Virus record (IMG/VR): IMGVR_UViG_3300046519_000460
Location: 1-25,888 of that record
Origin: a virus
Strand: one strand, 5' to 3'
DNA length: 25,888 nt
The notes beneath the pieces were generated by a model. The model saw only the letters and a list, made by a program, of their open reading frames with translations, searched no databases and had not been told where the DNA came from. Each line of letters opens with the position of its first letter. Positions within the stretch are counted from its first letter, which is position 1. Positions 5,354-22,270 of the stretch are shown here, in pieces. Both the position numbers and the translations under genes were made by a program.

Positions 5354-7101
5354 AGCAATATGATCTCCGGCGGAATTTCGGGCGCCTCCCCGGCCATGGA
5401 GACGGCCCTCGCCATCACCGCAGCGACAATGCCGTCGATCTTGTCCTTCGACCGCTTCTTCGCCGGCATGTAATTCAGGTTCTCGTCGAACCGGATCATC
5501 GTGTTGCGGGCCATATATTCCAGCACCGGATGCCCGCCATGATCCAGCTTGGTCGAATAGACCATGCGTTCGAATTCCTTGGTCGCCTCGCCCAGGCTGC
5601 GGATGCCCTGCCGGACCTCCCGGAAGTCCTCCGCCTCGAACCCCTCTTTCTGCAGGTCGGTGAGCAGCTTCGTGGCATTCCACGGGTCATAGGCTGTCAG
5701 CACCAGCTCGAATTCGCTGCGCCCCCACGCGATCGCCTGCTTCACATAGTCCTGGTCGACCTGGTCGCCGGGCGTCACCTCGACGGCGCCGGCGGCATGC
5801 CATTTGTCCCAGGCAATCTTCGTCTCGCTGATCCGCTTCGCCATCATGCCTTCCGGCATCCAGAAGCGCGGCAACAGGCGCCACAGCGGATCGTCCGTCG
5901 TCGGCTCGAACAGCCACACATGCGCCGTCACGTCGATCGTGGCGGAAAGGTCGAATGCACCAAAGCAACGCCGGCCGCGCATGCGCTCGGCCATCGTGCG
6001 CCAATCGCTTGCCTTGCACGCCTTCCACTTGGCCGGCGGCAGCCACAATGCATGATCGTCCACCCACTGGTTCAAATGATAGCATTTGAACCGCGCTTCC
6101 TTGGCCGGGCTACCTTTCGCCGCCCTGGCTTCACCGCGCAGGAACTGCAGCGTCGGCGAAAGCCCTAGCGAGGGGTTCGCCTGACGCCAGACCGTCTCGT
6201 CTTCCCAATCGGCATTTTCCGGTGCGGCAAAGATCACCACCAGCACGGCCGGATTGTCGATGTCGCCCGAAAGGATCTGCTCGCTTTCCTCCCACAACTC
6301 CACGCCGGTCGGGTTCGTCTTCAACCCGGCCGTCGATGCGAACAGGCCGATCGGTTCCAACCGGCTGCCCTGCCCGCCGCGAAGATCGTCTTCGATCTTC
6401 CGGCTTTTCCATTCGTGCATTTCGTCGCCAAGGGTCACGGTCGGCCCCTTGCCGTGCTTCCCCGCCTGTCCGCCGGTCAGCAGCAGGAAGGACGATGCCA
6501 GCGGCTTCAGCCACATGTGCGACGTGTGCACCTGGATATCGGCGGAAAGCGTATCGCTCAGCGCGATCATCGCCTTCATCTTGTTGAACGGGATCTCCGC
6601 CTGCTCTTCATCGCGGGCAAAGACGAACCCTTCCCCGCCATGAACGCCGTCCATCGCCCAGAACATGAGCGCCAGCGCGGCCAGGAACTCGGACTTGCCA
6701 TTCTTGCGCGGTATCCAGAGCCGAAGCGTCTGGAATATCCGCACGTGCTGCAGCACCGTCTCACCCGTCCAGGGGTCGACGATCTCGATCGGGTGTTTCC
6801 ACCCGAACAGCAGCCGGACGTTGATCTCCTGCCACAGGTTGAGCCGGAACGGCACGCCGGCGAACCTGTCATTCGTCAGCTTGAACGTCTTGGGCCAAAG
6901 GTCGACGACGGCGTCGGCCTTGGCATGATCGAACCATGCACCGGGCTGCGCCGCCGCCTTCTTCCAACCCGTTATCGCCCATCCATAGGACTCGTCGTCG
7001 GCAATCCGCGCCAGCCATGCCGGTAACGGATCATCCTCGGCCCACCAGGGCGACGGCATGGTTGGCGGCATGTCCTGCTCGCCCGTGCGAGCCGCCACCA
7101 T
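5350..7101 (-). CDS. terL: Terminase large subunit (Terminase_1 / HK97 TerL type)
   Basis: 583 residues, normal length. The ATPase domain has the Walker A variant PRKNGKS (131-137) preceded by RLWI, and Walker B VTLGDE with Asp226-Glu227 followed by MHEW. FASTAG at about 254-259 matches the coupling motif. The C-terminal RNase H-like nuclease has the expected acidic residues: Asp384 in FGAFDLSATID, Asp472 in AYDPWNA and Asp556 in KDKIDGIVAA. It cuts concatemeric DNA and drives packaging through the portal. The ATG at 7101 overlaps the small-subunit stop (ATGA), and its own stop overlaps the portal start. No key residue is missing. Confidence 0.96.
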   Translation of the reverse strand: MVAARTGEQDMPPTMPSPWWAEDDPLPAWLARIADDESYGWAITGWKKAAAQPGAWFDHAKADAVVDLWPKTFKLTNDRFAGVPFRLNLWQEINVRLLFGWKHPIEIVDPWTGETVLQHVRIFQTLRLWIPRKNGKSEFLAALALMFWAMDGVHGGEGFVFARDEEQAEIPFNKMKAMIALSDTLSADIQVHTSHMWLKPLASSFLLLTGGQAGKHGKGPTVTLGDEMHEWKSRKIEDDLRGGQGSRLEPIGLFASTAGLKTNPTGVELWEESEQILSGDIDNPAVLVVIFAAPENADWEDETVWRQANPSLGLSPTLQFLRGEARAAKGSPAKEARFKCYHLNQWVDDHALWLPPAKWKACKASDWRTMAERMRGRRCFGAFDLSATIDVTAHVWLFEPTTDDPLWRLLPRFWMPEGMMAKRISETKIAWDKWHAAGAVEVTPGDQVDQDYVKQAIAWGRSEFELVLTAYDPWNATKLLTDLQKEGFEAEDFREVRQGIRSLGEATKEFERMVYSTKLDHGGHPVLEYMARNTMIRFDENLNYMPAKKRSKDKIDGIVAAVMARAVSMAGEAPEIPPEIILL

Positions 7102-14745: not shown

Positions 14746-15497
14746 CAATGCCTCCGGAATGCGATGCTGCGGTCGGACTGCCAGCACAGCGCGCAGGTCG
14801 CGCAGCAGTCGGTGGCCCCGGTCTGTGCGGGGCATGTGATGGCCAGCGGATCTTCGCCCCAGCCATCGGCCTGGTCCGCGTCCAGCAGCCTGCTGGCATG
14901 GGTCGCGCCCGGCCGGCCGGAAAAGCGCATGGCGAAACGGTCCCACCGTTTGCGCGCCAGCGCGTCCAGCTGCTGGCCGATCGGGTCGCACACCGGGTCG
15001 CGTGCGGTGAAGCCGAACACATGGAGCGCGGGAAAGGCGAACAGTGCATCCTCCCACAGCGTGGCGTAATCGGTGGAATAGAAGTCGCCCAGCACATGCA
15101 GCCGCACCAGGAACCCGCCGGGATGCGCCGCCTGCAGCGCGCTCAGCTCCAGCCACAGCGCCGCTTCCAGCGGGGCGCCGGCGACGATCCGCTCTGCCGC
15201 CTGCATATTATTGCCATAGCATGCCGCCCACGCCGCGCAGCTGCGCGGGCAGGTCGCCCGCTCCTCCAGCGTCAGCGTCAGGATCGGCCATCCCAGCCTG
15301 TGCCCCTTGGCCACCTGCTTGCCGATCTTGCGGCTCTGCAGCCCGGATTTCAGCACCCGCTGCACCTCGCCCGCATCGAACACGCGGGAGGGAAAGATGG
15401 TGCGCCCGTCCCGCCGCGCGGGGTGCAGGGCAGACAGGCTGATGCCATGCCCGCCCGCCGCGACCGACGCATGCCGGCGCAGCGCGGAACGCTTCAT
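14745..15497 (-). CDS. GP88-like cysteine-rich phage protein
   Basis: 250 residues from the ATG at 15497, which overlaps the stop of the ParB-like gene (ATGA). It has two cysteine clusters: ATCPRSCAAWAACYGNN (Cys83, Cys87, Cys93) and TCPAQTGATDCCATCALCW (Cys222, 231, 232, 235, 238), with a conserved core LVRLHVLGDFYSTDYATLW and FGFTARDP between them. This architecture is that of the GP88 group of phage and plasmid proteins of unknown activity. The cysteine spacing suggests an iron-sulfur cluster or structural zinc. It is coupled to dnaN (TGATG) and to the ParB-like gene, so it is probably used together with them in DNA metabolism; that is inference. Confidence 0.78.
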   Translation of the reverse strand: MKRSALRRHASVAAGGHGISLSALHPARRDGRTIFPSRVFDAGEVQRVLKSGLQSRKIGKQVAKGHRLGWPILTLTLEERATCPRSCAAWAACYGNNMQAAERIVAGAPLEAALWLELSALQAAHPGGFLVRLHVLGDFYSTDYATLWEDALFAFPALHVFGFTARDPVCDPIGQQLDALARKRWDRFAMRFSGRPGATHASRLLDADQADGWGEDPLAITCPAQTGATDCCATCALCWQSDRSIAFRRH

Positions 15498-16351
15498 GCC
15501 CCCACCCCGTCGCTGTCGTCCAGCGCTTCGGCCCTGGCTTCCTCTAATGCATCGCGAATGGCGTTTTCGGCGGCTGTCCGCATGTTGATGTCGGGTTCCG
15601 TCGCCTTGGCGCGATTGATGTCCGCCGCCCATTCCTGCTGCGTGCCCCCCCCCATCACCACGGCAATGAAGTCGATCGCCGCTTCGTCGAACGGCCGGGG
15701 CAAGGCAGCGACGGCCGCCGCGATGCCCGGAAAGATCGTGCCGAAATAGCGCAGCGGCTGCCCGGCGAACGCCGCCCCGCCGATCGCCAGCGCCCGGCGC
15801 AACACCGCCTCGCCATCGCGCCGATACACACGCTGCAGGCCGCCCACATTCACCACCTGGCCGGGCTTCAGACTGTCATAATTGGTCGTCCTGCCCAGGG
15901 AGAGGCCGGCCGCCTGCAGCGCATGCTCGATCAGCACCGCCTCCTCGTCACGCGCCTGCAGCGCCGCCTTGAACAGGTCCAGCGCGGTCAGCGGCCGGCG
16001 CTGCTGGTTGAGCGCCACGAACGACGCCGCCTCGTCGGCCGCGCTGACGGACGACACCACCACGCAGGGCAGGTCATAAATGTCATGGCGCATCCGGGCG
16101 GCGGCAAGCCGGTGCTGGCCGTCGATCACCCACAGCGATCCGTCGTCGCGCTTGGCCACGGTCAGGGGCTGGCACAGCCCCCAGTCCCAATGCATGGCGA
16201 TGCGCCGCACCAGGGACTGGCTCGGCCCCGTGTCGATCGACCGCTGATAGCTGGCGTCGATCTGCAGCTGCGGGATCGGCCGGAACTCCAGGCTGGGCCG
16301 CATGCCCCGCTGCGGCTGCACCTTCAGGCGCGCGGTCGCGGCCCGGCTCAT
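15494..16351 (-). CDS. ParB-like nuclease-fold protein, 285 aa
   Basis: 285 residues from the ATG at 16351 (ATGA overlap with the large parB). The N-terminal ParB/sulfiredoxin-like domain has FRPIPQLQIDASYQRSID, WDWGLCQPLTVAKRDDG and WVIDGQHRLAAARM (Asp77-Gly-Gln-His80-Arg81), then SFVALNQQRRPLTALDLFKA. The C-terminal half is helical with an acidic tail (EEARAEALDDSDGVGA). The DGQHR box replaces the GERR box of true ParB and is typical of the nuclease- or ATPase-like branch. No ParA is nearby. Likely roles are DNA binding or processing in phage replication; this is not demonstrated for close relatives I know. Confidence 0.8.
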   Translation of the reverse strand: MSRAATARLKVQPQRGMRPSLEFRPIPQLQIDASYQRSIDTGPSQSLVRRIAMHWDWGLCQPLTVAKRDDGSLWVIDGQHRLAAARMRHDIYDLPCVVVSSVSAADEAASFVALNQQRRPLTALDLFKAALQARDEEAVLIEHALQAAGLSLGRTTNYDSLKPGQVVNVGGLQRVYRRDGEAVLRRALAIGGAAFAGQPLRYFGTIFPGIAAAVAALPRPFDEAAIDFIAVVMGGGTQQEWAADINRAKATEPDINMRTAAENAIRDALEEARAEALDDSDGVGA

Positions 16352-18255
16352 GCGTCCTGTCCTTCGGCGTCCTGCGCCGCGCGATATTCCGCCCAGACCT
16401 CGATCGTCGGCCAGTCCTGCCCGATCGTATCGGCATGCTCGATCAGCGCGGCCAGGCTGTCGTCACCCTGCTCGGCCATGCAGGTATCGTCATCTTCCTC
16501 CGGTTCCTGCACGTCCCAATATTCGCCGTTCGCCCAGCGGAAGAAGTCCAGGCCATCGACATTCACCACCGCCGGCGGCGGGTCCATCGCCAGCAGCTCG
16601 GCCTTGCGCCCGTCCAGGGCAGCGGCGGCCTCCGCCTTCTCCCGCTCCTTCGCCTGCGCGCGGATCTGCGCCTCCGCCTCGTCCAGCAACAACTGCTTCT
16701 CAGCCGCGTCCATCTGCGCATCGATCTCGGCCGGCGTCACCAGTACCTCCATGCCGATGCCGTAACATTCGCCGATGCCTTCCACCTCTTTCGACCGCCA
16801 CAGGTCTGGCCGGCTCGTATTCCAGAACTGGCGTCCCTCGACCTTCCCGGCGCGGACAGTCTTCGCCGCCAGCCATGCCGCGACCGATCGCACCGTCTTC
16901 ACCCGCCGCTCCGCCGCAATCTCCTCCGGCGTCTTTTCAGGCTGCTCCTTGCCCGGCGGCGGGATGACCGTTTCCAGGTCGGCGGCAGGCACGAAGAAGC
17001 GATCTTCCAGCCTCATCGCACCGCCGCTGCCGACGCTGGCGATACGATAGATCTCCATGCCGGCGCTGCTCGCCTTGCCCAGCAGCTTGTCATAGCCGGG
17101 CAGATTGTAGCGATAGCCCTTGTCGACCAGCTTGAACCCCTTGGGCGGCTTCGGCGCGGAACCACCACGGACGCCCGCCGGCACCAGGATGTTCATCGTG
17201 GTCGGATGCGCCTTGATCGCTTCGGCCAGCAGCAGGCGGACGGCTTCGGGCACCTTGTCCCGCGCGATATCCAGCACAAGATGGCCGTCCTTCAGCTTGC
17301 GATTGCCCCATCGCTCGGCATCGCCGAACAGGTCGTCCTCATAGCCGCCGCCGGCCGCCTCATAGGCCTGCGTGCCGATGAACTTGAACAGCGCGTCCGA
17401 TGTCGTCATCTGCGCGCCCTGATAGGCGGCAACGATGCTGTACGGCTTGTGCGGCTTCCAGCCTTTCTTCGCCTCCGCGCGAAAAACCTTCACCTGCAAC
17501 GCCCGGTCCTGCGACCCCGCATAGGCCATCGCCGCATCGATCGTCATCTTGCCTTCGCGCAGCGCGTCCAGGATCTCGTCGGCCAGGCCCGCCAGCCGCA
17601 GCCGCTGCTTCACATAGCGCTCGGAAAATCCGAACCGCTTGGCCAGATCCGCCGGCGACAGCGTGCCCGGTTTCATCAGCGTTTCGAACGCCGCGAATTC
17701 GTCGGCCGGGTTCATATCCCGCTTGCCCAGATTTTCGGACAGCGACAGGTCCACCGCCTCCGCCTGCGCGCGGATCAGCACCGGCACCGGCCAGTCCGCG
17801 TCGATCTCGCCCCGCTCCGCCAGCAGCGCCAGCGCCTGCAGCCGCCGCCCGCCACCCACGATATAGATCGTGCTGTCGTCCACGCGCGGATTGAATGGAT
17901 AGCCGATCAGCGACTGCAACAGCCCCTTGGCGGCGATGTCGTCGGCCATGCTTTCGATGTCGACGGCACTGTTCGTCTTGCGTACATTCTCCGGCGCGCG
18001 TCGCAGCCGCCCGAAGGGAACGGGCGTGATGCTGGACGGCGCGATGCCACCACTTGCGGGCATATTGGGTGCAGCCGGCACCGTGTCGGCGTCCGGCTGC
18101 ACCTGTGCGACCCGGGCGGGCTCGGAAGCCTTGGGCTCCGCCGGCGGGGATTTCGTCTTGGTCTTCGCGCTGCCTTTCGGGGCAGGCGCCTTGGGTGATG
18201 GGGTCGTCTTGGGCGCCGCCGTCTTCGGGGCAGCGGATGCTGTCTTGGCTGTCAT
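16348..18255 (-). CDS. ParB/RepB/Spo0J family protein, large form (635 aa)
   Basis: 635 residues from the ATG at 18255, with GGGAAG upstream; the open extension beyond it is rejected. Residues 1-75 are a Lys/Ala/Pro-rich disordered tail. The ParB N-domain follows: SITPVPFGRLRRAPENVRK, GLLQSLIGYPF, VGGGRRLQALALL (133-145, the GERR box with Glu replaced by Gly) and LSENLGKRDMNPADEFAAF (172-190, canonical). An HTH at about 199-238 (LSPADLAKRFGFSERYVKQ) and a long C-terminal region of about 390 residues complete it. Large ParBs of this type are common on alphaproteobacterial plasmids and integrative elements. No parA or obvious centromere is seen, so plasmid-style partition is not supported. Confidence 0.87.
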   Translation of the reverse strand: MTAKTASAAPKTAAPKTTPSPKAPAPKGSAKTKTKSPPAEPKASEPARVAQVQPDADTVPAAPNMPASGGIAPSSITPVPFGRLRRAPENVRKTNSAVDIESMADDIAAKGLLQSLIGYPFNPRVDDSTIYIVGGGRRLQALALLAERGEIDADWPVPVLIRAQAEAVDLSLSENLGKRDMNPADEFAAFETLMKPGTLSPADLAKRFGFSERYVKQRLRLAGLADEILDALREGKMTIDAAMAYAGSQDRALQVKVFRAEAKKGWKPHKPYSIVAAYQGAQMTTSDALFKFIGTQAYEAAGGGYEDDLFGDAERWGNRKLKDGHLVLDIARDKVPEAVRLLLAEAIKAHPTTMNILVPAGVRGGSAPKPPKGFKLVDKGYRYNLPGYDKLLGKASSAGMEIYRIASVGSGGAMRLEDRFFVPAADLETVIPPPGKEQPEKTPEEIAAERRVKTVRSVAAWLAAKTVRAGKVEGRQFWNTSRPDLWRSKEVEGIGECYGIGMEVLVTPAEIDAQMDAAEKQLLLDEAEAQIRAQAKEREKAEAAAALDGRKAELLAMDPPPAVVNVDGLDFFRWANGEYWDVQEPEEDDDTCMAEQGDDSLAALIEHADTIGQDWPTIEVWAEYRAAQDAEGQDA

Positions 18256-18322
18256 GGCACTTCCCTGTTGCTTGGCCTGTCTTGTTTGGCCTGATGGCGG
18301 CGCCCCGCTCTCGGGGTCGCGG

Positions 18323-18670
18323 TTATGGATATCGGCGATCGATGTCGGGCGGCGGAGGCGCTGAAAGGGGGACGCCCCCGCCACCCTGACCGCCGGAGCG
18401 GGGCTTGCTGTTTACCCCGGCGATGTTGGGTTGCTTCTCACGGTCGATAAGCCGATAGCGCACAGACTTTTTGCCGTTCATGTCGACATATTCAGCAAGT
18501 CCCGCGTCGATCAGCGCGCGGCATGTTTGCGGCAAGAACGGCGCCTGCTCGCCTTGCGCGAGCAAGTACCGGCCGCCACCGTTGACCCGCACGACAGCGG
18601 CGTCACCGCCATGCTGCTGCATCCAGCGAAGCGCGCGCTTCATAGCATCGGTTAGAGTGATGCTGCTCAT
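18323..18670 (-). CDS. Small phage protein with winged-helix-like segment, 115 aa
   Basis: 115 residues from the ATG at 18670, overlapping the stop of the upstream gene (ATGA). Residues 1-75 look like a small winged helix (TDAMKRALRWMQQHGGDAAV, then GRYLLAQGEQAPFLPQTCRA, LIDAGLAEYV). The C-terminus (REKQPNIAGVNSKPRSGGQ) is nearly the same as the C-terminus of the neighbouring gene at 18667-18870, and a 25-residue Gly/Pro-rich extension follows. The upstream open stretch of this frame is rejected. Function unknown; DNA binding is plausible. Confidence 0.68.
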   Translation of the reverse strand: MSSITLTDAMKRALRWMQQHGGDAAVVRVNGGGRYLLAQGEQAPFLPQTCRALIDAGLAEYVDMNGKKSVRYRLIDREKQPNIAGVNSKPRSGGQGGGGVPLSAPPPPDIDRRYP

Positions 18671-19238: not shown

Positions 19239-19795
19239 AAAGCCCCCCGCACGGTCGATTTCCCCGTGGCGACGATCGTCACCACCCGGCGCTGCTTCGG
19301 CCCGATGTTGCGCGCCATGATCAGCCCGCCGGCAATCAGCTGGTTGAAGACGTAGCGGGCGGCCTCCGCGTCCTTCAGCCCGATCTCCCGGGCCAGTTCG
19401 GCATTGGTGCGCGCGGGCAGCTGGTGGACGACGCAACGACGCAGGATGGCCAGCATCCGCCCCGCCGGCGTCTCGGGCTCCGGGTCGGCGCTCTTCCTGC
19501 CCGTGCTGCCCTGCGCCCGCGCCGGGTTGCGCCGCACCGCGAAATATTCCCACACGCCGCCCACCTTGCGCTGGTGCGTGCGGATCTCGCCCTGCGCCGT
19601 CAGATCGCGGGCATACACCGCCACGTCGCGCTGCTGGTCCAGCACCGCGCCGGTCGCATAGACCCGCTCGTCGCCGGCATCCGCGCTGGTCAGCCACGCC
19701 TCGAAATCGGCCATGGAGATAGACATGCACAATGGCCCGATGGCGTACCGGTCGCGTGGCTTCACCGTTGTATCTGCCCCCGTTTCGAACATCAT
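19235..19795 (-). CDS. Winged-helix DNA-binding protein, 186 aa
   Basis: 186 residues from the ATG at 19795, chosen because it overlaps the stop of the CII-like gene (ATGATG); ATGs at 19726 or 19714 would give about 160 residues. The C-terminal half is a winged helix: GRMLAILRRCVVHQLPAR, then TNAELAREIGLKDAEAARYV and FNQLIAGGLIMARNIG followed by RRVVTIVAT. The N-terminal half contains WEYFAVRRNPAR. Phage proteins like this often act as replication initiators or regulators. The exact role is unknown; DNA binding is well supported. Confidence 0.75.
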   Translation of the reverse strand: MMFETGADTTVKPRDRYAIGPLCMSISMADFEAWLTSADAGDERVYATGAVLDQQRDVAVYARDLTAQGEIRTHQRKVGGVWEYFAVRRNPARAQGSTGRKSADPEPETPAGRMLAILRRCVVHQLPARTNAELAREIGLKDAEAARYVFNQLIAGGLIMARNIGPKQRRVVTIVATGKSTVRGAL

Positions 19796-20331
19796 TTGCC
19801 CCGGCGATCCTTCCCGGCGGCCCGGCCGCCTGCAGGCGTGCGCGCAGCCAGCGGCTCCAGCGACATCCGCATCGCCACCGCCGTCGCGATCAGCTCTTCC
19901 AGCTTGCTGTCGATCTCCGCCGCTTCGGCGGGGCTGATCTTCGCGCCCATGTCGCTCGCCACATGCACGGCATCGCGCACCGCGTCGGACACGTCGCCCA
20001 GTTCCCCGGCCAGCTCCACCACGCCGGAAACGATGCTCCCGCCGTCGCCGTCCACATCGGGCAACCGCACGAACACCCCGCCGCGCTGCTTGCACAGCCA
20101 GCTGGTGACATGCGGCCACCCAGGCAGGCCCACGGTGCGGTCCTCAAGGCTGTCGATCAGGTCCAGCGTCGGGAACTCCGGCACATTGGCCAGCCCCATG
20201 TCGCTGATCTTCTGCCGGCGCACGCCGCTTTCGATCGCGGCGGCCTCCTGCCCGCCAAAAGCCTTCACCAGCGCCTTGAACGCCGCCTTGCCCGATTGCT
20301 GCTCGGGCGAGAGGGCGACTACCCGGCTCAT
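19792..20331 (-). CDS. CII-like phage regulatory protein (Phage_CP76 type)
   Basis: 179 residues from the ATG at 20331, preceded by GGAGGG. The N-terminus has an HTH-like segment: FKALVKAFGGQEAAAIESGVRRQKISDMG, then the conserved FPTLDLIDSLE and GWPHVTSWLCKQRGG. This is the layout of the CP76 family of phage CII-type regulators. A long C-terminal helical region with Ala and Asp follows, ending in a basic tail GGRAAGKDRRGK. It probably controls the lysis-lysogeny choice or early replication. A strong hairpin (20346-20372) sits just upstream of its ribosome site. Confidence 0.7.
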   Translation of the reverse strand: MSRVVALSPEQQSGKAAFKALVKAFGGQEAAAIESGVRRQKISDMGLANVPEFPTLDLIDSLEDRTVGLPGWPHVTSWLCKQRGGVFVRLPDVDGDGGSIVSGVVELAGELGDVSDAVRDAVHVASDMGAKISPAEAAEIDSKLEELIATAVAMRMSLEPLAARTPAGGRAAGKDRRGK

Positions 20332-20675
20332 GCGCCACGCCCTCCGGGGGCGCCGGTTGTGCCGACGCCCCCTTCGGCTATCGTGTCGGGACCGAATCGA
20401 CCACGAAGGGCTTCACAATGGCTGAAATCGTCATCATTCCCCGCACCAGCAACGATCTTGAAGTTGGTGCTTTCCGGGATACCGCAGGAAATCCGTGCGT
20501 GGGGCTCAACTTCAAGATGGCGAACGGTGATCACACTGTCGTCACCCTCAGCCTGCCCTTTTTCGTGGCCTATGCTGACCAACTGGCGCATGCGGCTGCG
20601 CAGTTCTCCCGGGATGAGTATTGGCGCGACGTTCCGAAGTGAACGCCCTGCGTCGGTCCAGGGGACAATCTTCAT
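20328..20675 (-). CDS. Doubtful coupled reading frame, possibly a remnant interrupted by an antisense gene
   Basis: 115 codons from the ATG at 20675 (MKIVPWTDAGRSL). The start overlaps the upstream stop and its own stop overlaps the CII-like start (ATGA), so the ends look like true operon junctions. However, most of the length lies antisense to the convincing plus-strand gene 20418-20642, and beyond the first dozen residues the sequence has no recognisable pattern. I read it as the edges of an original minus-strand gene whose middle was replaced by the plus-strand cassette, with the frame open by chance or kept open for coupling. It could instead be a real protein. Confidence 0.35.
   Translation of the reverse strand: MKIVPWTDAGRSLRNVAPILIPGELRSRMRQLVSIGHEKGQAEGDDSVITVRHLEVEPHARISCGIPESTNFKIVAGAGNDDDFSHCEALRGRFGPDTIAEGGVGTTGAPGGRGA
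20346..20372 (-). promoter_or_regulatory. 11-bp hairpin upstream of the CII-like gene
   Basis: On the minus strand GGGGGCGUCGG and CCGGCGCCCCC pair (one G-U) around a 5-base loop, ending about 14 bases upstream of the CII-like ATG and just before its GGAGGG ribosome site. It lies between the divergent plus-strand gene at 20418 and the CII-like gene. It lacks a U-tract, so a translational or stability role for the leftward message is as likely as termination. Confidence 0.4.
20418..20642 (+). CDS. Antisense cassette gene 1: small hypothetical protein, 74 aa
   Basis: 74 residues on the plus strand, opposite to all genes around it. The ATG at 20418 has GAAGGG seven bases upstream. The protein is beta-rich then helical: EIVIIPRTSNDLEVGAF, VGLNFKMANGDHTVVTLSLP, then the helix FFVAYADQLAHAAAQF. 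It is distantly like the other plus-strand cassette protein (20907-21152): both have a strand pair, a V/L-x-L-x-L/M-[TP] strand and an amphipathic helix with an A-x-x-L core. Codon use is less GC-rich than neighbours. Possibly a moron expressed from its own promoter; a TATCGT box at 20379 is a weak candidate -10. Confidence 0.7.
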   Translation: MAEIVIIPRTSNDLEVGAFRDTAGNPCVGLNFKMANGDHTVVTLSLPFFVAYADQLAHAAAQFSRDEYWRDVPK

Positions 20676-20857
20676 CACGCGGTGCCCCCTTCTTCCTGCG
20701 CAGATGCGCGGGGCGCCTCCGTCACAAACATCAGAAAGGCTTCGGCGCGACCAACGATGGTCCGATGATCGGACGGCCCGGTGCGCACCGCCAGCTCAAG
20801 GCAGGCGAGACGATAATCCCGCATTTCACCCGAACTGATATTGCTCGATCCCGACAT
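20675..20857 (-). CDS. Small hypothetical phage protein, 60 aa
   Basis: 60 residues from the ATG at 20857, overlapping the stop of the frame upstream (ATGA). The sequence EMRDYRLACLELAVRTGPSD, HRTIVGRAEAFLMFVTEAP forms a helical unit of a kind seen in small early proteins of alphaproteobacterial prophages; no named family. Unlike its two flanking frames it has no plus-strand gene on the opposite strand and its codon use is normal for the operon, so it is considered real. Confidence 0.65.
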   Translation of the reverse strand: MSGSSNISSGEMRDYRLACLELAVRTGPSDHRTIVGRAEAFLMFVTEAPRASAQEEGGTA

Positions 20858-21204
20858 CACCCGACCTCGCTTTCCGAAGAACAATTTTGATTGAAAGGAT
20901 GCCCACATGCCCGAGTGGAAACAGAATGAAGCGGGGCAGGTTGACCTAAAATCTCTGGTGGGATGGCGAACGGAATTGATCCCGATGGTAGGTCTGCTCC
21001 AAATTCAGTACGCAGAGAGCGACGAAGACCTTCATACTGGCGGCGCAGTTCTTCAATTGGCCATGACCGCTGAACAAGCATTTCTGCTTGCGAAAGATCT
21101 GATGGAAATGCTCGACCGGCTGGAACAGCAGCCGATCGGCACGAAGCAATAGCGATCCGCTGCCGCAGCATTTCGCGCGCACCAGCGTCGACCGATCCAG
21201 CCAT
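20857..21204 (-). pseudogene. Probable 5' remnant of a leftward gene, overprinted by an antisense cassette
   Basis: The frame starts at the ATG at 21204, overlapping the stop of the Cro-like gene (ATGA), and stops in another ATGA overlap at 20857. The first 20 residues (MAGSVDAGAREMLRQRIAI) look like a normal early phage protein with GC-rich codons. From about residue 21 the codons become A/T-rich and unusual (CCA, TTA, TCA), exactly where the plus-strand gene 20907-21152 lies on the other strand. I infer that the plus-strand gene was inserted into or replaced the body of this gene. A functional 115-residue product cannot be excluded. Confidence 0.4.
20907..21152 (+). CDS. Antisense cassette gene 2: small hypothetical protein, 81 aa
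   Basis: 81 residues on the plus strand within the leftward operon. The ATG at 20907 has AAGGA seven bases upstream. The protein (MPEWKQNEAGQVDLKS, then LIPMVGLLQIQYAESDEDL, VLQLAMTAEQAFLLAKDLME) has strands followed by a TAEQA helix, a pattern common in small alphaproteobacterial proteins of unknown role. G+C of the gene is visibly lower than flanking genes, and it contains codons such as CTA and AAA that are rare nearby. It ends about 50 bases before the preserved start of the interrupted leftward gene. Likely a horizontally acquired moron; function unknown. Confidence 0.75.
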   Translation: MPEWKQNEAGQVDLKSLVGWRTELIPMVGLLQIQYAESDEDLHTGGAVLQLAMTAEQAFLLAKDLMEMLDRLEQQPIGTKQ

Positions 21205-21470
21205 CACGCCGCCTCGCTTGTCTGGGCGGCAAGATCGCCGCTTTTGCCGGGCGACGGGGATTGCTGCGGCGCGGTATCCGTCAGGGTATGAGCAACGATG
21301 AACTCTCGAACCTTGGCGACCGTTTGGGGCCACAGCCGGCGCTTACCCCGCACGTCACGCACAAAATGCGGGTCGCCCATGGCGCGCCGGCCAAAGGATG
21401 TTTCGGTCATATCCGACAGCGCCATGAAGGCTTCGATTTCGGCGACCAGTTCAGGGTGATGCTGAGACAT
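21204..21470 (-). CDS. Cro-like first gene of the leftward early operon, 88 aa
   Basis: 88 residues from the ATG at 21470. The core DMTETSFGRRAMGDPHFVRD, VRGKRRLWPQTVAKVREFI (about residues 19-58) has an HTH-like pattern I recognise from small regulators in alphaproteobacterial phages (FGRRAMGDPHFV and LWP being the constant parts). It is divergent from the CI gene, with three operator-like sites between, the position of Cro in lambdoid phages. Leftward transcription from the promoter at 21483-21506 starts immediately upstream. A DNA-binding role opposing CI is inferred. Confidence 0.75.
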   Translation of the reverse strand: MSQHHPELVAEIEAFMALSDMTETSFGRRAMGDPHFVRDVRGKRRLWPQTVAKVREFIVAHTLTDTAPQQSPSPGKSGDLAAQTSEAA

Positions 21471-21482
21471 GCCCGATGACTA

Positions 21483-21506
21483 ATGTAGGACATATCCTAC
21501 CGTCAA
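21483..21506 (-). promoter_or_regulatory. Leftward early promoter overlapped by a CI operator
   Basis: On the minus strand TTGACG (21506-21501) is a good -35 box for the leftward operon. The operator GTAGGA-CATA-TCCTAC (21485-21500, plus-strand reading) fills the spacer, and a TTAGTC/ATTAGT -10-like hexamer follows at about 21484-21478. Repressor bound here would block RNA polymerase. The -10 match is weak, so the exact start is uncertain. Confidence 0.55.
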
Positions 21507-21568
21507 GCGCTAAATGTAGGATAAGTCCCAATCTAGCTTCGCACCCGTCATTGTGGGAAGCCTCCCAC
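21485..21568. promoter_or_regulatory. Three CI operators between Cro-like and CI genes
   Basis: Three 16-bp dyads with 6-base arms and a 4-base centre: 21485-21500 (GTAGGA/TCCTAC, perfect arms), 21516-21531 (GTAGGA/TCCCAA, degenerate right arm) and 21553-21568 (GTGGGA/TCCCAC, perfect arms, variant sequence). The starts are 31 and 37 bases apart. The third abuts the CI start codon, so it could mediate autorepression. Two further copies lie at 22909-22955. Confidence 0.75.
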
Positions 21569-22270
21569 ATGGTCGAGGGAATTTCAACACTCCAGCATTT
21601 TGTCGCACGGGCGCTCGCCTTCGCGCCACAGAAGCGTGATTTTTATGACAGTCTCATTCAGGAGCGGAGCAACACCAAAGGCAAGCCGATCTATGATATC
21701 CAGCGAGGCAAGAGCAAAAAGCCAAATGCAGAAACCTTGCGCCTGATTGCTGAAGTGCTGGAACAGCCCTACGAACTGATTTCAAAGGCTGCGGCCGGTT
21801 TTTCGGTTGAACCTTCTCGCATCGCCCCCGACGTGCCGCCGACGATGCAGAGTGATGACGATACCGTCGAAATCCTTTCAGTCGATCTCTCCTTCTCCAT
21901 GGGGCCAGGCACGTCGATCGACGACTATATCGAGGAAACGCCGGTACGCTTTGGCATGTCATTCCTTAGGGCCATCACGCGATCACCCTTTGAGCGTCTG
22001 CGCCTTGCGCGGGGGGTGGGCGACAGCATGTTTCCTACGCTGGTCGGCGGCGATGTCGTCCTGATCGATACGACGCAGCGGATGCTGAACAAGCAAGACG
22101 GCGTTTATGCGATCTCAATCTACGGCGCTGCAGCGATCAAGCGGCTGCGAACGATCGGACCACAAAGGATCATGGTCAAGTCCGACAACCCACGCGTGGA
22201 CGACCAGGAGGTCGATGCGGAAGACCTCATCATTGCTGGTCGGGTCATCTGGTTTGGGAGAGAATTGTGA
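21569..22270 (+). CDS. CI-type phage repressor, HTH plus S24 peptidase-like domain
   Basis: 233 residues from the ATG at 21569; 31 earlier codons are open but run through the operators, so they are rejected. An HTH lies at about residues 23-72 (DFYDSLIQERSNTKGKPIYD, RGKSKKPNAETLRLIAEVLE). A linker containing AAAG-FSVE (Ala76-Gly77) is a possible self-cleavage point. The S24 domain has GVGDSMFPTLVGGD (Ser153) and the AAIKRL lysine (Lys191), the LexA-like dyad. The gene is less GC-rich than the structural genes. It maintains lysogeny by binding the GTAGGA-N4-TCCTAC sites on both sides and is probably inactivated by RecA during the SOS response. Its stop overlaps the lipoprotein start (GTGA). 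Confidence 0.92.
   Translation: MVEGISTLQHFVARALAFAPQKRDFYDSLIQERSNTKGKPIYDIQRGKSKKPNAETLRLIAEVLEQPYELISKAAAGFSVEPSRIAPDVPPTMQSDDDTVEILSVDLSFSMGPGTSIDDYIEETPVRFGMSFLRAITRSPFERLRLARGVGDSMFPTLVGGDVVLIDTTQRMLNKQDGVYAISIYGAAAIKRLRTIGPQRIMVKSDNPRVDDQEVDAEDLIIAGRVIWFGREL

Follow-up and report, generated by a model that had tools for sequence, protein, structure and literature searches.

Small antisense genes beside a recurrent, covarying hairpin element in the leftward operon of a virus related to Sphingobium phages

In translational coupling by ATGA or TGATG overlap, the stop codon of one frame overlaps the start codon of the frame that follows. Noncontiguous operons (excludons) have been described in Staphylococcus aureus, for menE-menC-MW1733-ytkD and for ith-1/tha-1 in the prophage 80alpha, where, according to the parts of these accounts considered here, a gene is transcribed against the operon from within it, the two transcripts are mutually exclusive and the operon mRNA is not translated where it is crossed (PMC7154746, PMC11087260). 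Prophage accessory (moron) genes lying antisense to lytic genes have also been described, again as far as the part of the source considered here goes (PMC7067206). In this study, we analyzed the IMG/VR virus record IMGVR_UViG_3300046519_000460 (25,888 bases, taken whole and called the window), in which a sequence-only reading had pointed out two small genes on the plus strand of a leftward operon: p1 (20418..20642, +, 74 amino acids (aa)) and p2 (20907..21152, +, 81 aa), both of which are present as it had described them. We consider p1 to be one of many cargo genes of an antisense cassette that recurs and through which the operon could apparently still be read, carried by phages presumably of the family Sphingomonadaceae (judging from the genus Sphingobium), and we put the probability of this explanation as a whole at roughly 0.55.

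The locus resembles the noncontiguous operons, as far as the cited parts describe them, in having an opposite-strand gene inside an operon, also in prophages, with transcripts that would be mutually exclusive. It differs in that, as read from the sequence, a junction-coupled frame stays open across the region (in 29 of 39 instances, above the shuffled expectations), and in that a standard covarying element is combined with many unrelated cargo genes. With the moron genes, within the same limits of the source, it shares a small accessory gene set backwards among lytic genes and absence from collinear relatives, and it may, like them, have a promoter of its own (a -10-like TAnnnT in 31 of 38 rows). 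The recurrent shared element, a hairpin with a putative promoter, and the preserved operon frame set it apart. The stop-on-start junctions are those of ordinary ATGA/TGATG coupling, except that the coupling frame is here the complement of another gene. No paper describing this combination was found in a literature search judged from titles and abstract openings.

The element came to light when the stretches before cII were aligned and gave a common block. In the window it spans ~87 nucleotides (nt; 20325..20411, operon strand, -) and scores 86.4 bits with the model R2, to whose training set the window belongs. Along the operon strand it consists of hairpin 2, the linker UAGCCGAAG, hairpin 1 and the GGAGGG ribosome site of the gene for a CII-like regulator (19792..20331, -; phrog_101, E 1.6e-18), the next sense gene past the p1 cassette. 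Hairpin 1 (20346..20372, -) has 11 base pairs, formed by arms at 20362-20372 and 20346-20356 around a 5-nt loop (20357-20361), and hairpin 2 (20381..20406, -; arms 20400-20406 and 20381-20387, UCGUG..CACGA on the operon strand) adjoins the ribosome site of p1.

Relatives of the CII-like gene are encoded in 11 viral loci, and their arrangement bears out the proposal that p1 is an antisense cassette. The slot is empty in six of them (L003-L008), where the cro-position gene runs into cII via TGATG, the comparison with cassette-free relatives that the sequence-only reading had called for. A different antisense gene of 76-79 aa (from the likely start) stands directly before cII with the same element in four others (L002, L009, L010, L011), and a motif scan showed no element near cII in L012. 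Across instances, the gene that follows the element varies. Thirteen viral stretches contain the core motif, as do 4 of the 397 genomes from the family, and the reversed pattern had 0 matches; R2 matched 29 of the 397 family genomes and 4 of 385 genomes of the class, three of these weakly and one being a known Sphingobium genome. Genome matches place the group in Sphingobium, and relatives of this genus carry the element in their phages and prophages. Doubled cassettes do occur, since tandem elements lie on one strand ~380-650 bp apart in L065 (4619-4708 and 5000-5086), L090 (1501-1587 and 2091-2174) and L110 (1501-1586 and 2151-2237).

Both hairpins covary. In a 13-row alignment that predates any model, 88.5% of the cells were paired compared with 71.4% after shuffling, and 43 same-cell double changes were counted against 16.2, a count that takes in a tentative outer stem which itself lacks covariation. 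When 39 rows were fitted to R2, an alignment that leans toward the model, all 18 pairs covaried (11/11 in hairpin 1 and 7/7 in hairpin 2), with 182 cells changed on both sides vs. 60.2 in shuffles. Wobble pairs in hairpin 1, read on the operon strand, were G.U in 46 cases and A.C in 4 (17 and 1 in the unfitted alignment), and this excess favors an operon-strand RNA; hairpin 2 (G.U 11, A.C 5) gave no clear strand preference. Rfam 15 returned no match at the gathering score for the window and nine related loci, the best sub-threshold match being BjrC68 (18.4 bits vs. 39).

On the other strand, the element probably carries the promoter of the small gene. A -35-like TTGTGC (20357-20362, +) and a -10-like TATCGT (20379..20384, +), 16 nt apart, can be read as a putative promoter of p1. 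The hexamer opposite ACGATA conforms to TAnnnT in the 31 of 38 readable rows mentioned above, and a T.G motif lies within the hairpin-1 loop at the same distance of 16 nt in most rows with a short hairpin. In 39 of 45 rows the element was accompanied by a ribosome site and, after it, an antisense open reading frame (ORF) of at least 45 aa, with starts chosen by a ribosome-site rule, and the 39 encoded proteins fall into 25 clusters (E 0.01). Together with p2 they make up 40 proteins, almost all without a family match and none with a match to the PADLOC defence families at E 0.01. L076 (58% identity, reached only via the element) and L033 (31%, reached only via the cII scan) each have a homologue of p1 that follows the same element. 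Scans of viral contigs for close relatives of p1 and p2 found nothing, nor did blastn and tblastn searches against annotated phages, and sequence searches of the PDB yielded nothing useful. Searching the A6 profile against the 39 antisense proteins placed L057 and L092 on top (E 0.002 to 0.003), which we treat as a lead only. Separately, hairpin 2 and the linker are the same over ~40 nt in L009 (7748-7855) and L010 (7921-8007), the antisense proteins of which are just 34% identical, and cargo exchange at the element is possible there.

In the explanation we favor, the cassette would combine a control element of ~90 nt with a small gene that faces against the leftward early operon in which it lies. 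Read rightward, the element would supply a promoter, with its -35-like sequence in the hairpin-1 loop and TAnnnT as the -10-like one, and a ribosome site, and expression of the small gene in the lysogen would probably follow. In the operon direction, ribosomes coming off the upstream gene would restart, cross the complement of the small gene while making a disposable peptide, move past hairpin 1 and end translation at the next gene's start codon; cII and later genes would thereby stay coupled and shielded from polarity. Early transcription and transcription of the small gene would exclude each other, and p2 would have been acquired separately and lodged backwards nearby without an element. The promoter, the coupling, the timing and the role given to hairpin 1 are what we infer from the sequence. 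That a single ~90-bp element serves both strands, with promoter and ribosome site for interchangeable small genes on one and, on the other, a covarying hairpin within a translated runway frame that passes ribosomes on to the following operon gene, is a tentative proposal to which we give somewhat less than even odds. If true, it would allow phages to insert genes for expression in the lysogen against the direction of the early operon while leaving the operon intact.

Which strand encodes the selected protein can be judged from substitutions. The third codon position of the antisense gene was the most changed in 18 of 19 homologous antisense pairs (the exception being L065/L106), for instance with 15, 15 and 35 changes at the three positions between the window and L076, and 18, 11 and 42 between L002 and L009. 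The codon-aligned opposite frame had a lower identity than the antisense protein in 19 of 19 pairs; in the window/L076 pair, where that frame is the operon frame, the values were 0.45 vs. 0.58. The antisense proteins are therefore under protein-level selection, as judged from these comparisons, and the operon-frame peptide is not visibly selected beyond a short tail. This is the opposite of minus-strand proteins conserved across the overlap with unconserved plus-strand frames, the pattern that the sequence-only reading had named as its refutation. We hold it to be very improbable that the genes proper lie in the operon-strand frames, with the antisense ORFs a mechanical consequence: the frames are open and the tail peptide is partly conserved, but substitutions gather at the antisense third positions, the operon frame diverges faster, and neither m1 nor m3 (the operon-strand frames across p1 and p2) has a match in family searches. 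True overprinting, with functional proteins from both strands, is just as hard to credit. It would account for both frames being open and for the recurrence of the tail T[IVM][AT][ED], yet the operon-frame peptides share little past that tail and diverge faster than their antisense counterparts. The element might instead primarily regulate the early operon as an RNA (a translational switch, a processing or an antitermination site) from whose complement the small gene borrows a promoter. The strong covariation, the operon-strand wobble bias of hairpin 1 and its loop, near-constant as NNCNA in 12 of 13 rows, would fit such an RNA; we nevertheless regard it as improbable, because an antisense ORF with a ribosome site so regularly adjoins the element, the next gene varies, and TAnnnT is kept although it forces rare codons, ATA or GTA, upon the operon strand.

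A further explanation accepts the antisense cassettes and takes the open operon frame as a by-product of G+C-rich antisense codon use, with no translation and ordinary junctions. The open frames do not convincingly exceed chance when the window is taken by itself: with the p1 protein fixed, the opposite frame is open with a probability of 0.63 (pooled codons) to 1.0 (shuffling of its own codons), and with the p2 protein fixed, 0.06 to 0.11. Family-wide, the 29 open frames exceed expectation, clearly by pooled codon resampling (16.8 of 39, with 29 reached in 0 of 2000 resamplings) and moderately by synonymous shuffling within genes (24.2, P 0.0035). Counted per cluster, 17.75 of 25 were open vs. 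9.9 by pooled resampling (P 0.0005) and 14.9 by within-gene shuffling (P 0.0115), and the other two operon-strand frames showed no comparable excess. The aligned phase is over-used (20 of 39 instances, P 0.015; 13 of 25 clusters, P 0.042), and 37 of 39 rows have the stop codon of the operon frame at a start codon or at most 5 nt from one, 28 of them as ATGA or GTGA. Of the 34 with a next ATG close behind, 23 have it in the frame that fits. Frame-2 junction counts track the downstream gene itself and provide no control, and the upstream-junction count (21 of 28) is the best of many starts without a control and was not used as evidence. The pooled excess, the phase-0 instances given below, the junctions and the phase bias argue against a mere by-product, which we hold to be unlikely, though it is an explanation to be taken seriously. 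Several observations weigh against a readable cassette, the first of which also speaks for the by-product. The 20 codon-aligned instances, p1 of the window included, are open in 18 cases where within-gene shuffling expects 18.0, which leaves five phase-0 instances (4 open vs. 0.7 expected) as the main source of the signal under the stricter comparison. Ten of the 39 operon frames are closed. Covariation gives no support to the outer stem by which the ribosome site would be masked (75% paired, zero double changes), and no element was found at p2. With these points counted, the readable antisense cassette remains our preferred explanation for p1; at the family level, the open-frame excess and the stop/start junctions lend support to the earlier suggestion that downstream coupling is kept alive.

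The cassette would give temperate phages a standard means of carrying accessory genes inside an essential operon, and R2 would be a handle for finding uncharacterized small phage genes across a large family of environmental bacteria. It would also make the passage of ribosomes across antisense genes testable, and would offer a case of an ORF kept for passage and not for its protein.

For p2, the proposal of related genes repeatedly inserted into one kind of slot was not supported. This gene has no element, a real sense gene lies between it and p1, and its relatives are in bacterial genomes (4 of 397, E 1.1e-8 to 6.8e-3, 29-33% identity; L112 and L113 are ORFs of similar length). It is best seen as a second, independent antisense insertion of a host-type small gene. 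BssS (PF13991) scored 15.6 bits against p2, under the Pfam cut-off of 27, and the literature on BssS in phages, judged from titles, gave no functional lead. A shared origin of p1 and p2 was considered and is not shown, as a profile comparison with hhalign gave a probability of 3.7%. The similar architecture claimed for the two proteins is only suggested by low-confidence structure models (mean predicted local distance difference test scores of 69.3 for p1 and 61.8 for p2), both of which are strand-strand-strand-helix. Neither model had a Foldseek match at E 0.001, and the matches of p2 were scattered. The best matches of the p1 model, not significant (E 0.037 to 0.15, template modeling score up to 0.75), were PUR-alpha-like repeats, a nucleic-acid-binding fold. 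In L013, an 80-aa antisense ORF (6262-6504, -) lies directly after a gene related to the cro gene of the window, which is the place of p2, and a weak element match (E 0.017) is found at 6511-6593.

Around the two antisense genes, the operon begins with the Cro-position gene (21204..21470, -; relatives in L013-L015), divergent from a CI/LexA-type repressor (21476..22270, +; phrog_4, E 6.7e-28). It continues with m3 (20857..21204, -; TGATG at each end), the 60-aa sense gene m2 (20675..20857, -) and m1 (20328..20675, -; TGATG in, ATGA out). The match of m2 to the G1RFP family PF24182 (26 bits) is above the Pfam cut-off of 22.6, and a literature search by its Pfam name, judged from titles, gave no functional lead. 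The observation made from the sequence alone is confirmed in outline and is general beyond the window, its interpretation being partly supported. The junctions are indeed of the ATGA type at both ends of the minus frames (ATGA at the cII start, 20331; TGATG at 20678, 20857 and 21204), GAAGGG and GAAAGGA precede p1 and p2 as ribosome-site-like sequences, and the G+C of p1 (0.57) and p2 (0.53) is lower than that of the cII-like gene (0.70, and 0.88 at third codon positions). The equal length of the two minus frames is correct if ATG 20675 and ATG 21204 are taken as the starts (115 codons each; the raw ORFs begin further upstream, at GTG 20678 and GTG 21333), and is a coincidence because the sense frames of relatives have many lengths. 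Further along the leftward operon, two ParB-like genes lie next to each other on the minus strand (15494-16351, phrog_1033, E 3e-24; and 16348-18384, phrog_7783, E 1.8e-45, plus ParB-like families), an unusual pairing.
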